Part shown: piece after piece, positions 3-6,811 of the stretch
Position numbering within the stretch: position 1 is the first letter of the stretch
Layout: each line of letters opens with the position of its first letter
From: a bacterium
GTDB lineage: Bacteria; T1Sed10-126
Length of the DNA stretch: 6,811 nucleotides
Direction of reading: 5' to 3'
NCBI GenBank assembly: GCA_003557545.1
Contig: PWOD01000177.1
Span: 1-6,811 of the forward strand
The notes under the pieces: model-generated
Told to the model about the DNA's origin: nothing
The model's database searches: none
The model's input: the letters and a program-made list of their open reading frames with translations, nothing else
Translations under genes and position numbers: made by a program

Positions 3-536
3 ACTCATATTAATTTTAACGAAGGTTTCACAATCAAACACCTGCCTAGTAAAATTATTAAATCTAACTTAGAGGTGTACCAGTACCAAAGTGATTTAGA
101 TCCTATATCAGGTTCTTCAGCTGCGGATGAGATAATAAGAATTTCAGGAAAGGATGAAATAGGTAGAACATTTAAAAGAGATATAACCATTAGCTGGGAG
201 GCGTTTGATAAACCAGTAATTGAGATACTAGAAACTGATGCACCTAGATTAGAGGAAGGAGATGCGCTAGCTTCTCCTACAATTTTTTCTTGGAATATAT
301 TAAATATACATAATGTCGAACCTCACACTTTTGAAATAATTAAAAAAGGAGAAACTGATCAAGTGTGGTATGCAGCACAAACAGACAGCCATCACGAATC
401 TAGTTCTTCTTCGCAGGAAATAAGTCATGACCCTATTGTTCACAACGAGCCGTACACAGAAGTTTTTCAGTTAAGGGTGATAGACAAGAAAGGAGACGTA
501 GTTACAAAACTTGTAAGCATTGAATGGAAAGAGCTA
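3..536 (+). repeat. Ig-like modules of gene 1 (one partial, one complete)
   Basis: Protein-level repeat. The first module (3-206) is cut by the window edge and ends ITISWEAF; the second (207-536) has the EGD...SPTIFSWNI...NV core and ends VSIEWKE. The pattern (F-x-I start, FSW early strand, FxI/FxLxVxD late strand, I-x-W end) fits an Ig-like beta-sandwich, inferred from pattern only. Confidence 0.6.
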
Positions 537-1943
537 AACTTAGTTACTAACTTAGTCACATTAAATGCAGTTCCTTCCGACGCAGGCCAGGTAAGCGGGG
601 GAGGTCATTACGAACAAAACTCAGAGGTAAATATACAGGCTTCTTCTGAAGAGTTATCGCAATTCGATAAGTGGGAAGTTATTAGCGGGGGAGCAGAAAT
701 AAATGATGTAGATAGCACCCACACTTATTTTATAATGCCTGCAAATGCAGTCGAAATACATGCGCTGTTTATCCCACCAATAACCGTAACAACAAATGTT
801 TTCCCTCAAAACAAAGGTAGAATAAAAGCAGCTTGGCAGGCTTTGGGAGGGGGATCTTTCTATAATAATGGACAGGCGCCAGCTCTCTATCCTATTCTTT
901 TCACTCCTGAAATACTAGACTCTCTCTTTCTTCTTGATAAAGTAGATGTGTATTATGACGGAGTTTACCATAGTGAGTTTGATTTATCAGAATACCAAGA
1001 GAACACATCGTGGGGAAGTCCTAGTGAAAACAATCAAGACATTCATTATGATTTATTTATGATATCCCCTGGCGTAGTTACTTTATCAGAATCTGCTATT
1101 GGAGTAGGTATTTTAGAAGGAGGAGGTCTATTTAAAGAAGACAATATAGTAAATATATCAGTTAGTGACATAGACCCTTTATATGAATTTATAGAGTGGC
1201 AAGTAATAAGTGGCGGAGTAACTTTAGATAACCCCAATTCTCAAGAAACATTTTTTACAATGCCAGGAAATGATGTTGAAGTTAAAGCAATATATAAAGA
1301 TCCTTATACGCTAACTGTGCAAAGAAGTCATTCACAAGGCACAATTACTATCAATGGTTCTACAGGAACTAATAATCAAGTTAAAGGTGGGCAAACAGCC
1401 AATGTAGCTATATCAAATTTAGGAAGTTACTCATTCGATGATTGGGAAGAAGTATCAGGGTTATCAGGACAGATACATGGATTAACTACCACAACTATTA
1501 GTTTTACCATGCCTGAAAATAATGTTACTATTAAAGCCAATTTATCGCCTCCTCCCCCTCAATATTTGTACTGCGGAGCAGAAGCTTCCAATCAGTTTAC
1601 TCAAGGTCCTCCTGCATTTGAGCCAGTTGAGGACTATAGTTTTATTGATCTGGATAACGAAGAAAAATATACTGCTTTTGAAGGTAGTGAAAATACAAAT
1701 CATCCTTCAGAAACAATTCCCAATGATTATTTTACAGTTGATTGTAGTCCCGGACCTTCTTATGTTATAGTAGCTTTTCCTAAGAATTGGTTTTCAGGAA
1801 CGGTAGCTGTACAGGCTCCTGGGTCAAATTTCACTGTAGACTTAGTAGAAGTGGAGGAAAGGGATCACAATGGATTGACATATAGGATATTAAGAACTGG
1901 TTCAAATTTTAGTACTGAAGAATATATTGCAAAATTAGTATAA
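3..1943 (+). CDS. Modular Ig-like / B-repeat phage-type structural protein (5' partial)
   Basis: Unrecognised by name; probable virion surface or tail-fibre protein. The frame is open from the first base of the window (codons from position 3) to TAA at 1941-1943, giving 646 visible residues. A GTG at 75 lies inside a conserved module and is not the start. The visible residues align end to end with residues 309-954 of the next gene, so roughly 308 N-terminal residues are probably missing upstream. Order: tail end of an Ig-like module (3-206), a full Ig-like module (207-536), four B-repeat-like modules (555-1547, the second very divergent), a PPPP bridge (1548-1559), and a C-terminal module (1560-1940). 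A Ser-rich patch (HHESSSSSQE, near 390-420) interrupts the second Ig-like module. No membrane segment, LPXTG motif or other cell-anchor sequence is visible. Its stop overlaps the next start by one base. A bacterial surface adhesin is the main alternative. Confidence 0.9.
   Translation, partial: THINFNEGFTIKHLPSKIIKSNLEVYQYQSDLDPISGSSAADEIIRISGKDEIGRTFKRDITISWEAFDKPVIEILETDAPRLEEGDALASPTIFSWNILNIHNVEPHTFEIIKKGETDQVWYAAQTDSHHESSSSSQEISHDPIVHNEPYTEVFQLRVIDKKGDVVTKLVSIEWKELNLVTNLVTLNAVPSDAGQVSGGGHYEQNSEVNIQASSEELSQFDKWEVISGGAEINDVDSTHTYFIMPANAVEIHALFIPPITVTTNVFPQNKGRIKAAWQALGGGSFYNNGQAPALYPILFTPEILDSLFLLDKVDVYYDGVYHSEFDLSEYQENTSWGSPSENNQDIHYDLFMISPGVVTLSESAIGVGILEGGGLFKEDNIVNISVSDIDPLYEFIEWQVISGGVTLDNPNSQETFFTMPGNDVEVKAIYKDPYTLTVQRSHSQGTITINGSTGTNNQVKGGQTANVAISNLGSYSFDDWEEVSGLSGQIHGLTTTTISFTMPENNVTIKANLSPPPPQYLYCGAEASNQFTQGPPAFEPVEDYSFIDLDNEEKYTAFEGSENTNHPSETIPNDYFTVDCSPGPSYVIVAFPKNWFSGTVAVQAPGSNFTVDLVEVEERDHNGLTYRILRTGSNFSTEEYIAKLV
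555..1547 (+). repeat. Four B-repeat-like modules of gene 1
   Basis: Units at about 555-779, 780-1073 (very divergent, with extra sequence and no MP motif), 1074-1304 and 1305-1547. Good copies follow the divergent InlB B-repeat pattern: GGG-x-[YF]...V-x-I, then F-x-x-W-x-V-[IS]-SGG, then TFF-x-MP-x-N-x-V-x-[IV]-x-A. This family occurs in bacterial surface proteins and phage structural proteins. Confidence 0.75.
1560..1940 (+). other. Shared C-terminal module of gene 1
   Basis: Begins QYLYCGAEASNQF after the proline bridge, contains TNHP, YVIVAFPKNWF and ERDHNGLTYRILRT, and ends at the stop. Matches gene 2 at 9 of 13 positions in the opening motif and 11 of 14 in the ERxHNG motif. No known fold was recognised with confidence. 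Confidence 0.6.
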
Positions 1944-1945
1944 TG
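1941..1945 (+). promoter_or_regulatory. TAATG stop/start overlap between genes 1 and 2
   Basis: TAA and ATG share one base. No Shine-Dalgarno-like purine run is seen in the 12 bases before the ATG (AAAATTAGTATA), so the start may depend on termination-reinitiation by ribosomes finishing gene 1. Confidence 0.6.
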
Positions 1946-2422
1946 GGCTCATATAGCACTAACAAATATATCGTAGTAGATGGTCCTATTAGACCTAGGG
2001 AAGTTAATTCTACTTACTCAGTAGTTATGGATACCCACATTAAAGGTGGGTATCATGTTTACAAAACTATAGAGGAGAGGGATGGGATTTTATTTGATTT
2101 GCAGCAAAATTCTCTAATACCTGAATCACAAATCCTTAAAAAAGGGATGATATGTTACATCATTTCAATTAACAAAAGTTATAGGTTAATAACTGAACCT
2201 TCTGAATGGGATTTAGAAAGATTTGATGAAAACTGGCAAGCTTATCCTATCCCTGATGATTGGGAAGAACTCCACTCAGGTAGTGTTCACAATGTTTTTT
2301 ATACCAATGATCAAGAAGTTCCTTATAATGTAGGTGGGATTAAAGCTGGGGAGACTTTTAATGAAGTCCCATTATCAGATCCAGAACAATTGGATATGTG
2401 GACTAAACTTCTGTATCCTTAT
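1943..2422 (+). other. Shared N-terminal module and linker of gene 2
   Basis: Residues 1-160. Conserved points shared with the next two genes are the GP-x-R start, GGYHVY, an E-x-RD-x-I stretch and KKGMICYI-x-x-x-K-x-YRL. The GGIKAGETFNEVPL linker and KLLYP follow. Because it is the part common to three proteins with different middles, it is a candidate docking module to a common partner on the virion (inference). Confidence 0.65.
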
Positions 2423-4807
2423 CTTTCACCCAATTTTTCATCATTTTCAATTCAAGAAATATCAGGAAACAGTTTAGGTTGGGAAAATCCTATACCTCAA
2501 GTAATTAATTTTGAGTGGTCAACAGTTAATTCAGAAAGCATACAACCTGGATCTTTAGTTATTAAAGACCAAGAAACTAATTCTATTCTTGCAGAAAATA
2601 TAAATGATGAAGAACCAAGAATTAAGTTAGTAGATTTAGGGGCTCCTATCGAAATGCCTTATTGGGAAGCTACTTATAGATTTAGATTAGAAGGAGAAAC
2701 AACTCAAGGGGAACCTATTCATAGAGATCTTGTAATAAGGTGGAACGATTACCCAACTCTCCCAAAAATCACTAAATTCACAATGGATGGGGAAAGTTCA
2801 TATGAATTAGATGAATCAGAATCTACCCCAAGCAACCCACTTTTTGAATGGGAAGTTGATAATGAAGATTATATAGATTTTAATGAGAGTTTTGAAATAA
2901 AAGTACTACCTAATCAAATTGTGGCCAGTGGATTAGAAGGTTATTCATACTCGAGCAACTTAAGTCCGATATCAGGAGTAGAGGGAGATACGAAAACAAT
3001 CAGAATAAGAGGCTGGGATGTCACAGACAGAGTGTTTTATAGGGATATAAAAATAACTTGGGAGAAATATTTAACTCCTGAAATAAATACATTTTCTATA
3101 GAGGATGAAAATACTAATTTAATAGAAGGAGACACATTTAATTCACCAACCGTATTTTCATGGAATATAAGTAATATTCAAAACGTAACTCCAGGCAGTC
3201 TTAAAATAACAAGAAAAAATGAATTAGAAATATGGTTTGAAGATACTAACGAAGAACATATTGACAGTGGAATTTCTCAAGTAGAAATTACGCATGACCC
3301 TATAACTCATAACGAAGTAACTAGTGAAGTTTTTGAGATATCAATTCAAGATACACAAGGAAATACATATACCAAAATAGTAGGTATACAATGGAACGAA
3401 GCTGCAACAGTATTCTATCAAGTATTTCTTAATTCAACTCCTGAAGGGTTTGCAAGTTTTGAAGGAGACGGTTCTTATGAAGAAGGTGATGAAGTTGCTA
3501 TTAATGTATTTCCTAACGATAAGGTAAATTTTCTTAATTGGGATGTCCAAAGTGGAGGAATAAGTTTCACTGATCCAGAAAACGAGCAACAAACATTTGT
3601 AATGCCAGCGACAAATGTAGGAATAAATGCGATAGTTCAGCCACCTAGTGAAGTAGACACAGTTTGGCCTACTCCTACCCATCAGAATCATTCGCATATT
3701 GTTATAGAATCAGAAGGAGAAACTAATACTAATACTGCAGAAGAAGTAAGAGTGAGTTCGCAAGTTAATTGTCAAGTATTCGTGACGGATGATAAATACA
3801 TATTCATAGACGTAAAAAGAATCGTAGCAGGAACTGTTGAAGACACTTATAGTTCTAAATCGTTCAATTTCATTATGCCTAATAATAATGTGTCTCTTCA
3901 ACTTAATTTGCAATCCCCAAACCAATTTTCAATTGTTGTAAGTCCTCCATCAGCTGGTGGAGTAGCTTCATTTGGAGGGCAAGGCACATATAAAGAAGGT
4001 GATAATGTTAGTTTTTATTTAGATCACATCTTTGATGCTCAATACACTTTTGATTACTGGGAAGTAACCGATGATGAAAGTGGTACAGTGGTAATACCTA
4101 ATATAGAAGAACCTTTAGGCAATGAATTTTCTATGCCTAATAATAAAGTAGAGATAACTGCTCATTTTAGAGTACCGCATGATGTTCAAATAAATACTAA
4201 TCATTTGCCTCCAGGGTCTGATTTCAGTGGAGCAGGAACATATGCTGAAGATCAATTAGTAACTTTAGGTGTAGTTTCTTTGCCTAGTGGCTACACTTTT
4301 GATTATTGGGAGGTTGAAGAAGATGCTAGTAATACAGTAGTAATAGATAATCCTAACTCAGAAACTGCATCATTTGATATGCCACATAATAATGTAATTA
4401 TTAAACCTCATTTAACTGATCCACCACCTGAATACCTATATTATGGAGCAGAGGTTGCTAACCAGTTTTTTAGCGGATGGCCTCCGTCTCCTGTAGAGAC
4501 CTTTGATTTTATAGATTTAAGTGACGGGGCAGTCTTTGATACCGCAGAAGGGGATTCAGGTACAAATCATCCCAAAGAAGTTTTTCCAGACGGGATTTTT
4601 ACAATAGAGGATATCTTAGAAGCATCTTTTATTTTAATTGCATACCCTCTTAGTTGGTTCTTAGGAACACCTAAATACCAGTACCCAGATACCCCTCCGG
4701 CGTTAGATTTTATTTTTGTAGAAGAAAGAGAGCATAATGGGGTTACTTATAGAATTTATAGAACAGCATCAGATGTCACAGGGACACACTCATTACAAAT
4801 AGTATGA
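1943..4807 (+). CDS. Modular Ig-like / B-repeat phage-type structural protein (complete, 954 aa)
   Basis: Complete member of the family; role inferred as a virion fibre or decoration protein. The ATG at 1943 is supported because the N-terminus (YIVVDGPIRPRE) matches the starts of the two following genes (YGIVGGPLRAN, YTIIGAPLRPG). Order by residue: N-terminal module 1-110 with GGYHVY (35-40) and KKGMICYI (66-73); linker 127-163 with GGIKAGETFNEVPL and MWTKLLYP; three Ig-like modules about 165-270, 272-375 and 377-486, ending IRW, ITW and IQW; four B-repeat-like modules about 490-568, 571-657 (divergent), 661-745 and 746-826; PPP at 827-829; C-terminal module 830-954. The N-terminus has no hydrophobic signal core and no transmembrane segment is visible, which argues against Sec export and for assembly into a particle. 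The TGA overlaps the next ATG. The C-terminal two thirds are collinear with the preceding gene, suggesting duplication. No catalytic motif was seen. Confidence 0.93.
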   Translation: MGSYSTNKYIVVDGPIRPREVNSTYSVVMDTHIKGGYHVYKTIEERDGILFDLQQNSLIPESQILKKGMICYIISINKSYRLITEPSEWDLERFDENWQAYPIPDDWEELHSGSVHNVFYTNDQEVPYNVGGIKAGETFNEVPLSDPEQLDMWTKLLYPYLSPNFSSFSIQEISGNSLGWENPIPQVINFEWSTVNSESIQPGSLVIKDQETNSILAENINDEEPRIKLVDLGAPIEMPYWEATYRFRLEGETTQGEPIHRDLVIRWNDYPTLPKITKFTMDGESSYELDESESTPSNPLFEWEVDNEDYIDFNESFEIKVLPNQIVASGLEGYSYSSNLSPISGVEGDTKTIRIRGWDVTDRVFYRDIKITWEKYLTPEINTFSIEDENTNLIEGDTFNSPTVFSWNISNIQNVTPGSLKITRKNELEIWFEDTNEEHIDSGISQVEITHDPITHNEVTSEVFEISIQDTQGNTYTKIVGIQWNEAATVFYQVFLNSTPEGFASFEGDGSYEEGDEVAINVFPNDKVNFLNWDVQSGGISFTDPENEQQTFVMPATNVGINAIVQPPSEVDTVWPTPTHQNHSHIVIESEGETNTNTAEEVRVSSQVNCQVFVTDDKYIFIDVKRIVAGTVEDTYSSKSFNFIMPNNNVSLQLNLQSPNQFSIVVSPPSAGGVASFGGQGTYKEGDNVSFYLDHIFDAQYTFDYWEVTDDESGTVVIPNIEEPLGNEFSMPNNKVEITAHFRVPHDVQINTNHLPPGSDFSGAGTYAEDQLVTLGVVSLPSGYTFDYWEVEEDASNTVVIDNPNSETASFDMPHNNVIIKPHLTDPPPEYLYYGAEVANQFFSGWPPSPVETFDFIDLSDGAVFDTAEGDSGTNHPKEVFPDGIFTIEDILEASFILIAYPLSWFLGTPKYQYPDTPPALDFIFVEEREHNGVTYRIYRTASDVTGTHSLQIV
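2030..2054 (+). repeat. Perfect 9-bp inverted repeat inside gene 2
   Basis: GATACCCAC (2030-2038) and GTGGGTATC (2046-2054) pair perfectly around a 7-base loop, about 90 bases after the gene 2 start. There is no following T-run, so it is not a standard terminator. Gene 3 keeps only a weak 5-bp version at the equivalent place, so it may be incidental to coding. Confidence 0.4.
2435..3400 (+). repeat. Three tandem Ig-like modules of gene 2
   Basis: Three consecutive units of about 105-110 residues (2435-2752, 2756-3067, 3071-3400). Each opens with a F-x-I/F-T strand, has an early F[ES]W, and closes with I-x-W (IRWNDY, ITWEKY, IQWNE). The third is the closest match to the complete unit in gene 1. 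Confidence 0.65.
3410..4420 (+). repeat. Four B-repeat-like modules of gene 2
   Basis: Units at about 3410-3646, 3653-3913 (divergent, but ending FNFIMPNNNVSLQL), 3923-4177 and 4178-4420. Clear hallmarks include GSYEEGDEVAINV, GTYKEGDNVSFYL, YTFDYWEV (twice) and the closing [FS]-x-MP-x-N-x-V-x-I. Confidence 0.8.
4427..4804 (+). other. Shared C-terminal module of gene 2
   Basis: Runs from EYLYYGAEVANQF through TNHP, FILIAYPLSWF and EREHNGVTYRIYRT to the stop. It is placed at the same end as in genes 1 and 3, as expected for a tip or cap (inference). Confidence 0.6.
4804..4807 (+). promoter_or_regulatory. ATGA stop/start overlap between genes 2 and 3
   Basis: ATG and TGA overlap by four bases in all. 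The upstream bases (CATTACAAATAGT) hold no Shine-Dalgarno-like motif, consistent with translational coupling. Confidence 0.6.
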
Positions 4808-5253
4808 CGTACGACTCATCTTTATATGGAATTGTAGGAGGACCTTTAAGGGCTAATGCCATTTTCTCTGTTGTTAGAGATAAGGATATTAGAGGTGGTT
4901 ATCATATTTATGATAATGAAAGTGCTAGGCTAAATATTCCCTTTAATATTATGCAAGAATCAACGAGACCTGATTCACAGGTTCTCAAAAAGGGGTTGTT
5001 GTGTTTTATTTTAGAAACGAATAAAACTTATAGATTTGTTTCCGATCCTTCAGACTGGCCCGCCGAAAGGTTTGATGAATATTTTGTAGGTTATCCGATA
5101 GAAGATGATTGGCAAGAAGTTTCAGTAGGGGATATAGAAGAAATGTATTACACCAATCTCACTCCTGTTCCTCAAGATTTAGGGGGAGTAAATCATGGGG
5201 AGAGCTTCAATGAAGTTCCTCTTCAGAAAATGTGGGATAAACTTCTATATCCA
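4804..5253 (+). other. Shared N-terminal module and linker of gene 3
   Basis: Residues 1-150. Closely matches the gene 2 module, including the EPSEW/DPSDW...ERFDE...DDW stretch and the GG-x-x-x-GE-x-FNEVPL linker, but the linker is shorter before MWDKLLYP (no SDPEQLD insert). Confidence 0.65.
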
Positions 5254-6420
5254 GAGCTTGAAGTTAAGTTTGATAGATTCAGAATTAATGGTACATCTAT
5301 ACTAACTTTACACGAAGGGCAAACTTCTTCTTCGTCTTATACATTCTCTTGGCAAGTTAATAATGGGCATCTATTAGATCCAGAACATGATATAACTATA
5401 AGAGATGATCAGACTGAAGAAATCATTTATGTAGGTTCTAGTGAAGCAACAGGAAGTGAAACTATAACAGGATTACCTGAGATTGAGGGAGAAGAGGGAG
5501 ATAATTACTTCTTTACAATATCTGGAATGGATATTTATGGTAATCCTTTGAATAGAGCTTGTAGAATAAGATGGATAGCTCCATTACCTCCAGATACTTA
5601 TCCTGTAACTCTGGGAACAATACCAAGTGGGGTAACTGCTAGTTTTTCTGGACAGGGTAATTACGAAGCAGGGGACAAAGTCACTATCAACATTTTTGAT
5701 ATTGATCCTAAATATAGTTTCTTAAATTGGTATGTGGTGTCAGGAGGAGTAGATTTAGCTACACCGCATGAACCTAATTGTACGTTTTATATAGGAGAAT
5801 TGCCTGTGGAAATTAGAGCAGTTCTTAAAGAACCTCATCAAGTGTTTTTAGGAACTAGTGTTATTGGAGGAGGATCTGTAAGCTCTAGCTTTAGTTTCAG
5901 TAGTGGATCAGTTTTTGCACACGAAGAGACAGTAGATATTGAACTTACTAGCTTAGCTAGTGGTTATACCTTTAGTCACTGGACTGTAGAACACGGTGGA
6001 GCTGAATTGGATGATACTGAGAGTAATCCTACATTCTTTGAAATGCCTGACAATGATGTAAGTATAATAGCTCATGTCAATCCTCCACCTACAATAAATA
6101 TGTATTATGGAGCAGCTAGTTCTAAGGATGAAAATCTTGATTTAGATGAATTACAAAGTACTGGGACTACTCAGCAAAATATCTCACATCCTAACCAAGT
6201 AGTTTCAAGTTTTGTAGGGTCTTTTGATAGCGAGTATATAGTAATAGCACACCCTGAAGATTGGTACACTGGAGATTATCTTCAAGTAACTTATCAATTA
6301 GGTGGGCAGCCTTTTGGGTTAAGTTTTGAAGGAACTCAAGTATATGAGGGAATTGTGTATAGAGTCTATTTTAGTGGTCTAAGACAGAACAGAATTAATA
6401 CTGATGTCTATATAATATGA
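4804..6420 (+). CDS. Short paralogue of the modular Ig-like / B-repeat phage-type structural protein (complete, 538 aa)
   Basis: Third tandem member, with the same plan as its upstream neighbour but a shorter stalk. The start ATG at 4804 lies in an ATGA overlap and places IVGGPLRAN at the expected N-terminal position. Order by residue: N-terminal module 1-108 with GGYHIY (31-36) and LKKGLLCFIL (61-70); linker 127-150 with GGVNHGESFNEVPL and MWDKLLYP; a single Ig-like module about 155-258, with FSW (181-183) and a final IRW; two B-repeat-like modules, about 267-343 and 346-427; PPP 427-429; C-terminal module 431-538 with MYYGA and YIVIAHPEDWY. In the first B-repeat the usual MP before the last strand is altered to IGELP. 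No signal peptide, anchor or enzyme motif is seen. The role is inferred to match its neighbours: a virion fibre or decoration protein, possibly giving a shorter spike built from the same end modules. Confidence 0.93.
   Translation: MTYDSSLYGIVGGPLRANAIFSVVRDKDIRGGYHIYDNESARLNIPFNIMQESTRPDSQVLKKGLLCFILETNKTYRFVSDPSDWPAERFDEYFVGYPIEDDWQEVSVGDIEEMYYTNLTPVPQDLGGVNHGESFNEVPLQKMWDKLLYPELEVKFDRFRINGTSILTLHEGQTSSSSYTFSWQVNNGHLLDPEHDITIRDDQTEEIIYVGSSEATGSETITGLPEIEGEEGDNYFFTISGMDIYGNPLNRACRIRWIAPLPPDTYPVTLGTIPSGVTASFSGQGNYEAGDKVTINIFDIDPKYSFLNWYVVSGGVDLATPHEPNCTFYIGELPVEIRAVLKEPHQVFLGTSVIGGGSVSSSFSFSSGSVFAHEETVDIELTSLASGYTFSHWTVEHGGAELDDTESNPTFFEMPDNDVSIIAHVNPPPTINMYYGAASSKDENLDLDELQSTGTTQQNISHPNQVVSSFVGSFDSEYIVIAHPEDWYTGDYLQVTYQLGGQPFGLSFEGTQVYEGIVYRVYFSGLRQNRINTDVYII
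5266..5577 (+). repeat. Single Ig-like module of gene 3
   Basis: One unit with the same landmarks: FRING start, EGQ then FSWQVNNG, a FFTISGMDIYGNPLNR late strand, and CRIRW end. The two further units present in gene 2 are absent here. Confidence 0.65.
5602..6084 (+). repeat. Two B-repeat-like modules of gene 3
   Basis: Units at about 5602-5832 and 5839-6084. Hallmarks are GNYEAGDKVTINI, YSFLNWYVVSGG, GYTFSHWTVEHGG and TFFEMPDNDVSIIAH. The first unit has IGELP where MP is usual. Confidence 0.8.
6094..6417 (+). other. Shared C-terminal module of gene 3
   Basis: Shorter, more diverged copy: NMYYGA, SHP, YIVIAHPEDWY, then YEGIVYRVYFSG. The order of landmarks is preserved although overall identity with genes 1 and 2 looks low. 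Confidence 0.55.
6417..6420 (+). promoter_or_regulatory. ATGA stop/start overlap between genes 3 and 4
   Basis: Same arrangement as the previous junction. The upstream bases (GATGTCTATATAAT) are AT-rich with no Shine-Dalgarno-like motif. Confidence 0.6.
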
Positions 6421-6704
6421 CAAATTATAGTGGTAATTATACAATAATAGGGGCTCCTCTGCGTCCTGGAAGTAAGTCAGATGCTTATGCTATGGCTTCT
6501 GCTAACTATCTTAGAGGAGGATACCACGTTGTAGATACTCTAGAAGATCGAGATAATATCCCTCCATTTGACGAAGAAATGGAGTCTGATCTTCCAGAAT
6601 CAAATAGAAGAAGAGAAGGGATGCTCTGCTATGTTATAAGTGAGCAAAAGACTTATAGATTAGTAGGAGGAGTTTCAAATGATGATTGGAAAGAAGTATC
6701 TGTA
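6417..6704 (+). other. Shared N-terminal module of gene 4
   Basis: Residues 1-96. The same GGYHV, RDNIP and REGMLCYV...KTYRLV landmarks appear in the same order, without the ERFDE insertion and without the following linker seen in genes 2 and 3. Confidence 0.65.
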
Positions 6705-6811
6705 TCGCCTTCAGATCAAGAGTATTTATCTATAACTATAGAAAATAAAATAGAAACCACTATAAATCATGGGTTCAATAGAAAACCAACAGTTCAGGTT
6801 GTTAATGAGTC
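6417..6811 (+). CDS. Phage-type structural protein with the shared N-terminal module (3' partial)
   Basis: Fourth tandem member, running off the window after 131 full codons. ATG 6417 overlaps the previous TGA (ATGA) and gives the family N-terminus (YTIIGAPLRPG). The shared module continues with RGGYHVVDTLEDRDNIP (33-49) and RRREGMLCYVISEQKTYRL (64-82), a clean match to the RxGMxCYVxxxxKxYRL signature that recurs near the N-termini of phage tail and fibre proteins. It then departs from its neighbours: it lacks about 16 residues that they carry between YR[LF] and DDW, and the GGIxxGExFNEVPL linker is absent. Instead, residues 103-130 read YLSITIENKIETTIN followed by HGFNRKPTVQVVN, resembling a 'HN-GR-P-V-x-V' beta-strand motif of some phage tail proteins. 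The rest of the protein is unknown. A different structural role that uses the same attachment end is plausible. Confidence 0.88.
   Translation, partial: MTNYSGNYTIIGAPLRPGSKSDAYAMASANYLRGGYHVVDTLEDRDNIPPFDEEMESDLPESNRRREGMLCYVISEQKTYRLVGGVSNDDWKEVSVSPSDQEYLSITIENKIETTINHGFNRKPTVQVVNE

Follow-up and report, generated by a model that had tools for sequence, protein, structure and literature searches.

In Ackermannviridae phages such as CBA120 and S117, the adsorption proteins are encoded together in tailspike clusters (TSP1-4), whose members have conserved N-terminal domains and are variable in the rest of their sequence (PMC8825819, PMC11414711). A protein with the N-terminal module N1 described below is present in the jumbo phages PaBG, Lu11, NCTB, and Erwinia Alexandra, and in PaBG and NCTB it lies beside the sheath and long-fibre genes. 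The phages LR756502 (642 kb) and LR745206 (635 kb), which have been placed side by side among the largest megaphages (PMC9723777), carry modular gene blocks in which N1 and its companion module N2 recur.

The locus compared here is the window, i.e., the whole stretch of 6,811 nucleotides that was analysed, which is the entire contig C128 of a 2.15-Mb bacterial assembly of 239 contigs. The window is probably a mis-binned fragment of a large tailed phage, with one operon that encodes four or more paralogous tail-fibre or adsorption proteins of common base and graded lengths. Judged by its sequence, this region appears most similar to huge or jumbo phages. Its array would most likely work like the multi-tailspike clusters of the Ackermannviridae, without belonging to that family: the likeness is one of organisation, and the window array, unlike those clusters, shares its C-terminal tips. 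Furthermore, no tailspike family, and hence no catalytic beta-helix tailspike domain, was found in Pfam and PHROGs scans of the four proteins. The PaBG/Lu11/NCTB/Erwinia Alexandra group has one or two short N1 proteins (about 230-330 amino acids), whereas the window contains a tandem of long ones. The usual carriers of the InlB B-repeat (Flg_new_2, PF18998) are bacterial surface proteins; genes 1-3 of the window contain 2-4 copies, but these are located between phage-type modules. A search of one library of papers found none that links InlB B-repeats with phage tails.

Gene layout and paralogy

Four co-oriented open reading frames (ORFs) occupy the window from end to end on the forward strand. 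Gene 1 (positions 3-1943; 646 amino acids), whose 5' end is open at the contig edge, encodes a partial Ig-like repeat, a further Ig-like repeat, three B-repeats, and a C-module. Gene 2 (1943-4807; 954 amino acids) encodes N1 and N2, three Ig-like repeats, four B-repeats (the second of them weak), and a C-module, and gene 3 (4804-6420; 538 amino acids) encodes N1 and N2, one Ig-like repeat, two B-repeats, and a C-module. Gene 4 (6417-6809; 131 amino acids), whose 3' end is open at the other contig edge, encodes an N1 module and gave the best phage-family matches. Read directly from the sequence, the junction of genes 1 and 2 is TAATG at 1941-1945, with a 1-nt overlap, and those of genes 2 and 3 and of genes 3 and 4 are ATGA at 4804-4807 and 6417-6420, each with a 4-nt overlap. 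There was no obvious Shine-Dalgarno sequence upstream of the three starts (genes 2-4), and promoter- and terminator-like sites in the window were no more frequent than in shuffled sequences. The stop/start overlaps at starts with no recognisable Shine-Dalgarno sequence suggest translational coupling, and the proteins of the array would therefore be made together.

All-against-all BLASTP showed that the paralogy is real and that the end modules are shared far above chance. Gene 1 matched gene 2 with 36% identity over 656 amino acids (E~1e-104), residues 2-637 of the former pairing with residues 310-946 of the latter; because this alignment is collinear, gene 1 is a complete paralogue that is truncated where the contig ends. 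The N-terminal 298 amino acids of genes 2 and 3 were 36% identical (E~1e-52), genes 2 and 4 were 42% identical over 84 amino acids (E~1e-20), and genes 3 and 4 matched with E~1e-18. The C-modules of genes 2 and 3 were 44% and 27% identical to that of gene 1, respectively, within longer alignments with E-values of 1e-21 to 1e-104. The sequence-only reading had described a tandem array of at least four paralogous genes with stop/start overlaps, in which the N-terminus recurs in genes 2-4 and the C-terminal module in genes 1-3, and both statements were borne out, the first by the ORFs, the overlaps of 1, 4, and 4 bases, and BLASTP, and the second by BLASTP. Its proposal that the array serves as a reservoir for recombination found no support at the DNA level. 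The longest stretch of DNA that recurs exactly in the window measures 15 nt, a length that simulated sequences also reach (mean 12.8, maximum 15) and that thus gives no sign of recent recombination.

Modular composition of the proteins

The N-module of approximately 160 amino acids consists of two parts. N1, at about residues 1-99, carries the motif GGYH and the stretch GM.CY...K.YRL; N2, at about residues 101-163, carries YTN..VP, FNEVPL, and MW.KLLYP. The whole module is encoded at 1943-2449 in gene 2, where N1 and N2 occupy about these residues, and at 4804-5280 in gene 3. The positions of the Ig-like repeats and B-repeats were obtained with profiles made of the window's own repeats. Ig-like repeats were located at residues 164-269, 275-375, and 380-486 of gene 2, at residues 155-259 of gene 3, and at residues 3-66 (cut) and 73-177 of gene 1; the term "Ig-like" for these repeats of approximately 105 amino acids is a label from their sequence pattern, as no Pfam family matched there. 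B-repeats were located at 3410-4423 in gene 2 (residues 491-568, 593-659 [weak], 662-745, and 747-827), at 5593-6087 in gene 3 (residues 265-344 and 345-428), and at 540-779 (residues 182-259) and 1071-1553 (residues 358-434 and 435-517) in gene 1, in which a stretch of approximately 97 amino acids between the first and second B-repeats lies outside the named modules. The Pfam scan identified these repeats as Flg_new_2 (PF18998), a divergent InlB B-repeat, with scores of 90.7, 88.9, and 50.6 bits in genes 1-3, all above the curated cut-off of 23.6.

The C-module, of 112-131 amino acids, ends genes 1-3 (1551-1940, 4421-4804, and 6082-6417, respectively). That of gene 1 is beta-rich in a low-confidence structural model (pLDDT 56), with which the top viral structural matches were nearly all phage proteins, some of them named tail fibre, although the matches were weak; a fold search of the PDB yielded only common beta-sandwiches (best Z 4.9) and was uninformative. 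No match to the C-module was found in phage records by tblastn. The model of the N-module (pLDDT 44) was too poor for a fold search.

The complete paralogues, genes 3 and 2, differ in length (538 vs 954 amino acids) and contain one vs three Ig-like repeats and two vs four B-repeats. As the repeat numbers vary between common end modules, the paralogues differ mainly in the length of the stalk. The earlier suggestion of a common base with different stalks or tips therefore holds best for the stalk; a common base fits the data as a reading of the N-module, and different tips are not supported as stated because one C-module family is shared by genes 1-3. The N-module at the start of each protein would most likely anchor it to the tail or baseplate, the Ig-like repeats and InlB-type B-repeats, in varying number, would form a stalk acting as a spacer, and the common beta-rich C-module would most likely contact the host surface or a partner fibre. 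We infer the roles of anchor and contact from the positions of the modules and from the occurrence of the N-module in tail regions, and the proteins would be carried on the virion and displayed at graded lengths.

Phage homologues of the N-module

The sequence-only reading had proposed PHROGs profile searches of each protein as a check on its phage assignment, and these connected the N-module of gene 4 with phage families: phrog_23630 (E 3e-7), phrog_24134, "virion structural protein" (2.8e-5), and phrog_25379, "tail protein" (1.3e-4). Genes 1-3 had no significant PHROG match of their own; genes 2 and 3 are related to these families via the module that they have in common with gene 4 (E 1e-17 to 1e-20). 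None of the four genes had a whole-length match with a named function. With the E-value limit of tblastn set loosely, 85 phage records matched the N-module of gene 4, including Lu11 (3e-6), the Bacteroides phages DAC/SJC03 (1e-5), Cellulophaga phi12:1 ("phage tail protein," 8e-4), Erwinia and Dickeya jumbo phages, Cellulophaga siphophages, and, weakly, PaBG and gp369 of Bacillus phage G ("tail protein," 0.3). In annotated records, several homologues lie near tail or structural genes: they are neighboured by a tail sheath gene in NCTB, by sheath and "tail fiber/intimin-like" genes in PaBG, and by tape measure and structural genes in the Cellulophaga phages. In PaBG, gp215, which directly precedes the N-module homologue, has been identified in virions as a long tail fibre (PMC7412058). 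Searches for close relatives, for genes 2 and 3 in IMG/VR and for the N-module in IMG/VR and the GTDB genome contigs, found none.

N1 and N2 recur in the gene blocks of LR756502 and LR745206 and in 19 IMG/VR contigs that were found by way of these two megaphages. As in the window, the homologous modules are carried by adjacent, co-oriented, modular structural genes; N1 and N2 are mostly on neighbouring genes and head a block of long modular structural genes. The window differs in that N1 and N2 are fused, the fusion is repeated gene after gene, and B-repeats are present in the stalk. No match to the C-module was found in four records or the 19 IMG/VR loci with a profile built from three rows, whose reach is limited, and neither the Ig-like repeat nor the B-repeats were found in the megaphage records or IMG/VR loci with profiles of three to eight rows, which may miss remote forms. 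In the megaphage-type contigs (L262-L280, L016, and L017), the conserved head pair comprises a protein of approximately 340 amino acids with N2, followed by one of 430-1457 amino acids with N1. The LR756502 block ends in two adjacent paralogues (L017:36535-39713) with 57% identity over 540 amino acids. The window's form of the array, with fused N-halves and B-repeats in the stalk, was not found elsewhere, whereas gene sets of such a type are already known in phages, and the array, though divergent, is an ordinary example of the known class of multi-fibre modular gene arrays.

The main rival to the fibre reading is that the proteins are structural components of the virion that do not bind receptors, i.e., capsid decoration or whisker proteins by which the particle adheres to mucus or to surfaces. 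Capsid decorations commonly contain Ig-like domains, the N-module match phrog_24134 is filed under head and packaging, and other genes of the megaphage blocks match the "head decoration" family phrog_2647. However, the homologues in PaBG, NCTB, and the Cellulophaga phages adjoin sheath, tail-fibre, or tape-measure genes, and a capsid role is unlikely. Regarding the earlier description of the proteins as phage-type surface proteins, the phage families matched by the N-module of gene 4, the neighbours of its homologues, and the megaphage blocks support a phage origin and a fibre-like structural role; the exact role is one that we infer.

Origin of the contig

The composition of the window is foreign to the bin. 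Of the 239 contigs, 140 were opened, some short ones reading as N, and the 97 opened contigs of >5 kb served as the reference. The GC content of the window is 0.357, whereas that of the bin contigs averages 0.463 (s.d. 0.032), and its tetranucleotide profile correlates with the rest of the bin with r = 0.33 (mean of the contigs 0.79, s.d. 0.12), only two of the 97 contigs being as low or lower. Because both profiles are unlike the bin, C128 is probably a mis-binned phage contig. Among the best 80 relatives retained from the genome collection, none shares more than 65% identity with the RecA of the bin, and the host therefore appears to be a bacterium that has been poorly sampled. Of the opened contigs, C111 (C111:1-8057; GC 0.371, tetranucleotide r 0.53) resembles the window most; it encodes a phage-type replication module consisting of a DnaB-like helicase, a primase, and a DNA polymerase. 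The polymerase has distant matches in >1000 phage records, and its N-terminal part resembles, by eye, uracil-DNA glycosylase. In another contig, C163 (C163:1-5670; GC 0.374), which is atypical in composition (r 0.15 to the bin), one open frame of at least 1889 amino acids takes up the whole length; its first 497 amino acids gave no PHROG match.

Were the window part of a prophage or of a tailocin-type element within the genome of the bin, rather than of a free phage, its binning with this genome would be explained, and a recent prophage would be compatible with its composition. This alternative is nevertheless quite improbable, as no contractile tail sheath family was found in the bin, the composition differs strongly from it, the closest homologous blocks belong to large phages, and a second phage-like contig of similar GC content, with replication genes (C111), is present in the bin.

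Flg_new_2 matches occur at at least 150 places in the bin, in ORFs of up to 4459 amino acids (e.g., on contigs C214, C133, C104, C81, and C228); at E<1e-9, there were 16 in the bin (one within the window) vs 0-3 in 40 other genomes. The hypothesis that the window's B-repeats were borrowed from the host is not supported because they are not specially similar to those of the bin. Although this abundance of B-repeats favours surface adhesins of the host bacterium, that explanation is largely refuted and has very little probability left, since the N-modules match phages and none of the 97 other prokaryote genomes searched, the window's composition is foreign and its B-repeats are not specially close to those of the bin, and the three visible starts (MGSYSTNKY, MTYDSSLYG, and MTNYSGNYT) show by eye no signal-peptide pattern, in agreement with the sequence-only reading, which had noted the lack of export signals.

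Within the reading of the window as a large-phage fragment with a multi-fibre operon, it is conceivable, if rather doubtful, that a huge phage displays length-graded fibres with one base and one tip, in which B-repeats act as interchangeable stalk segments and the paralogues differ in reach and not in receptor specificity. If the reading is right, the bin that is used as one bacterial genome includes phage contigs, and the window would represent a further, divergent lineage of large phages that carry a multi-fibre operon. Its fibre stalks would then exemplify the use, in a phage, of B-repeats that are otherwise frequent on the surfaces of bacteria.
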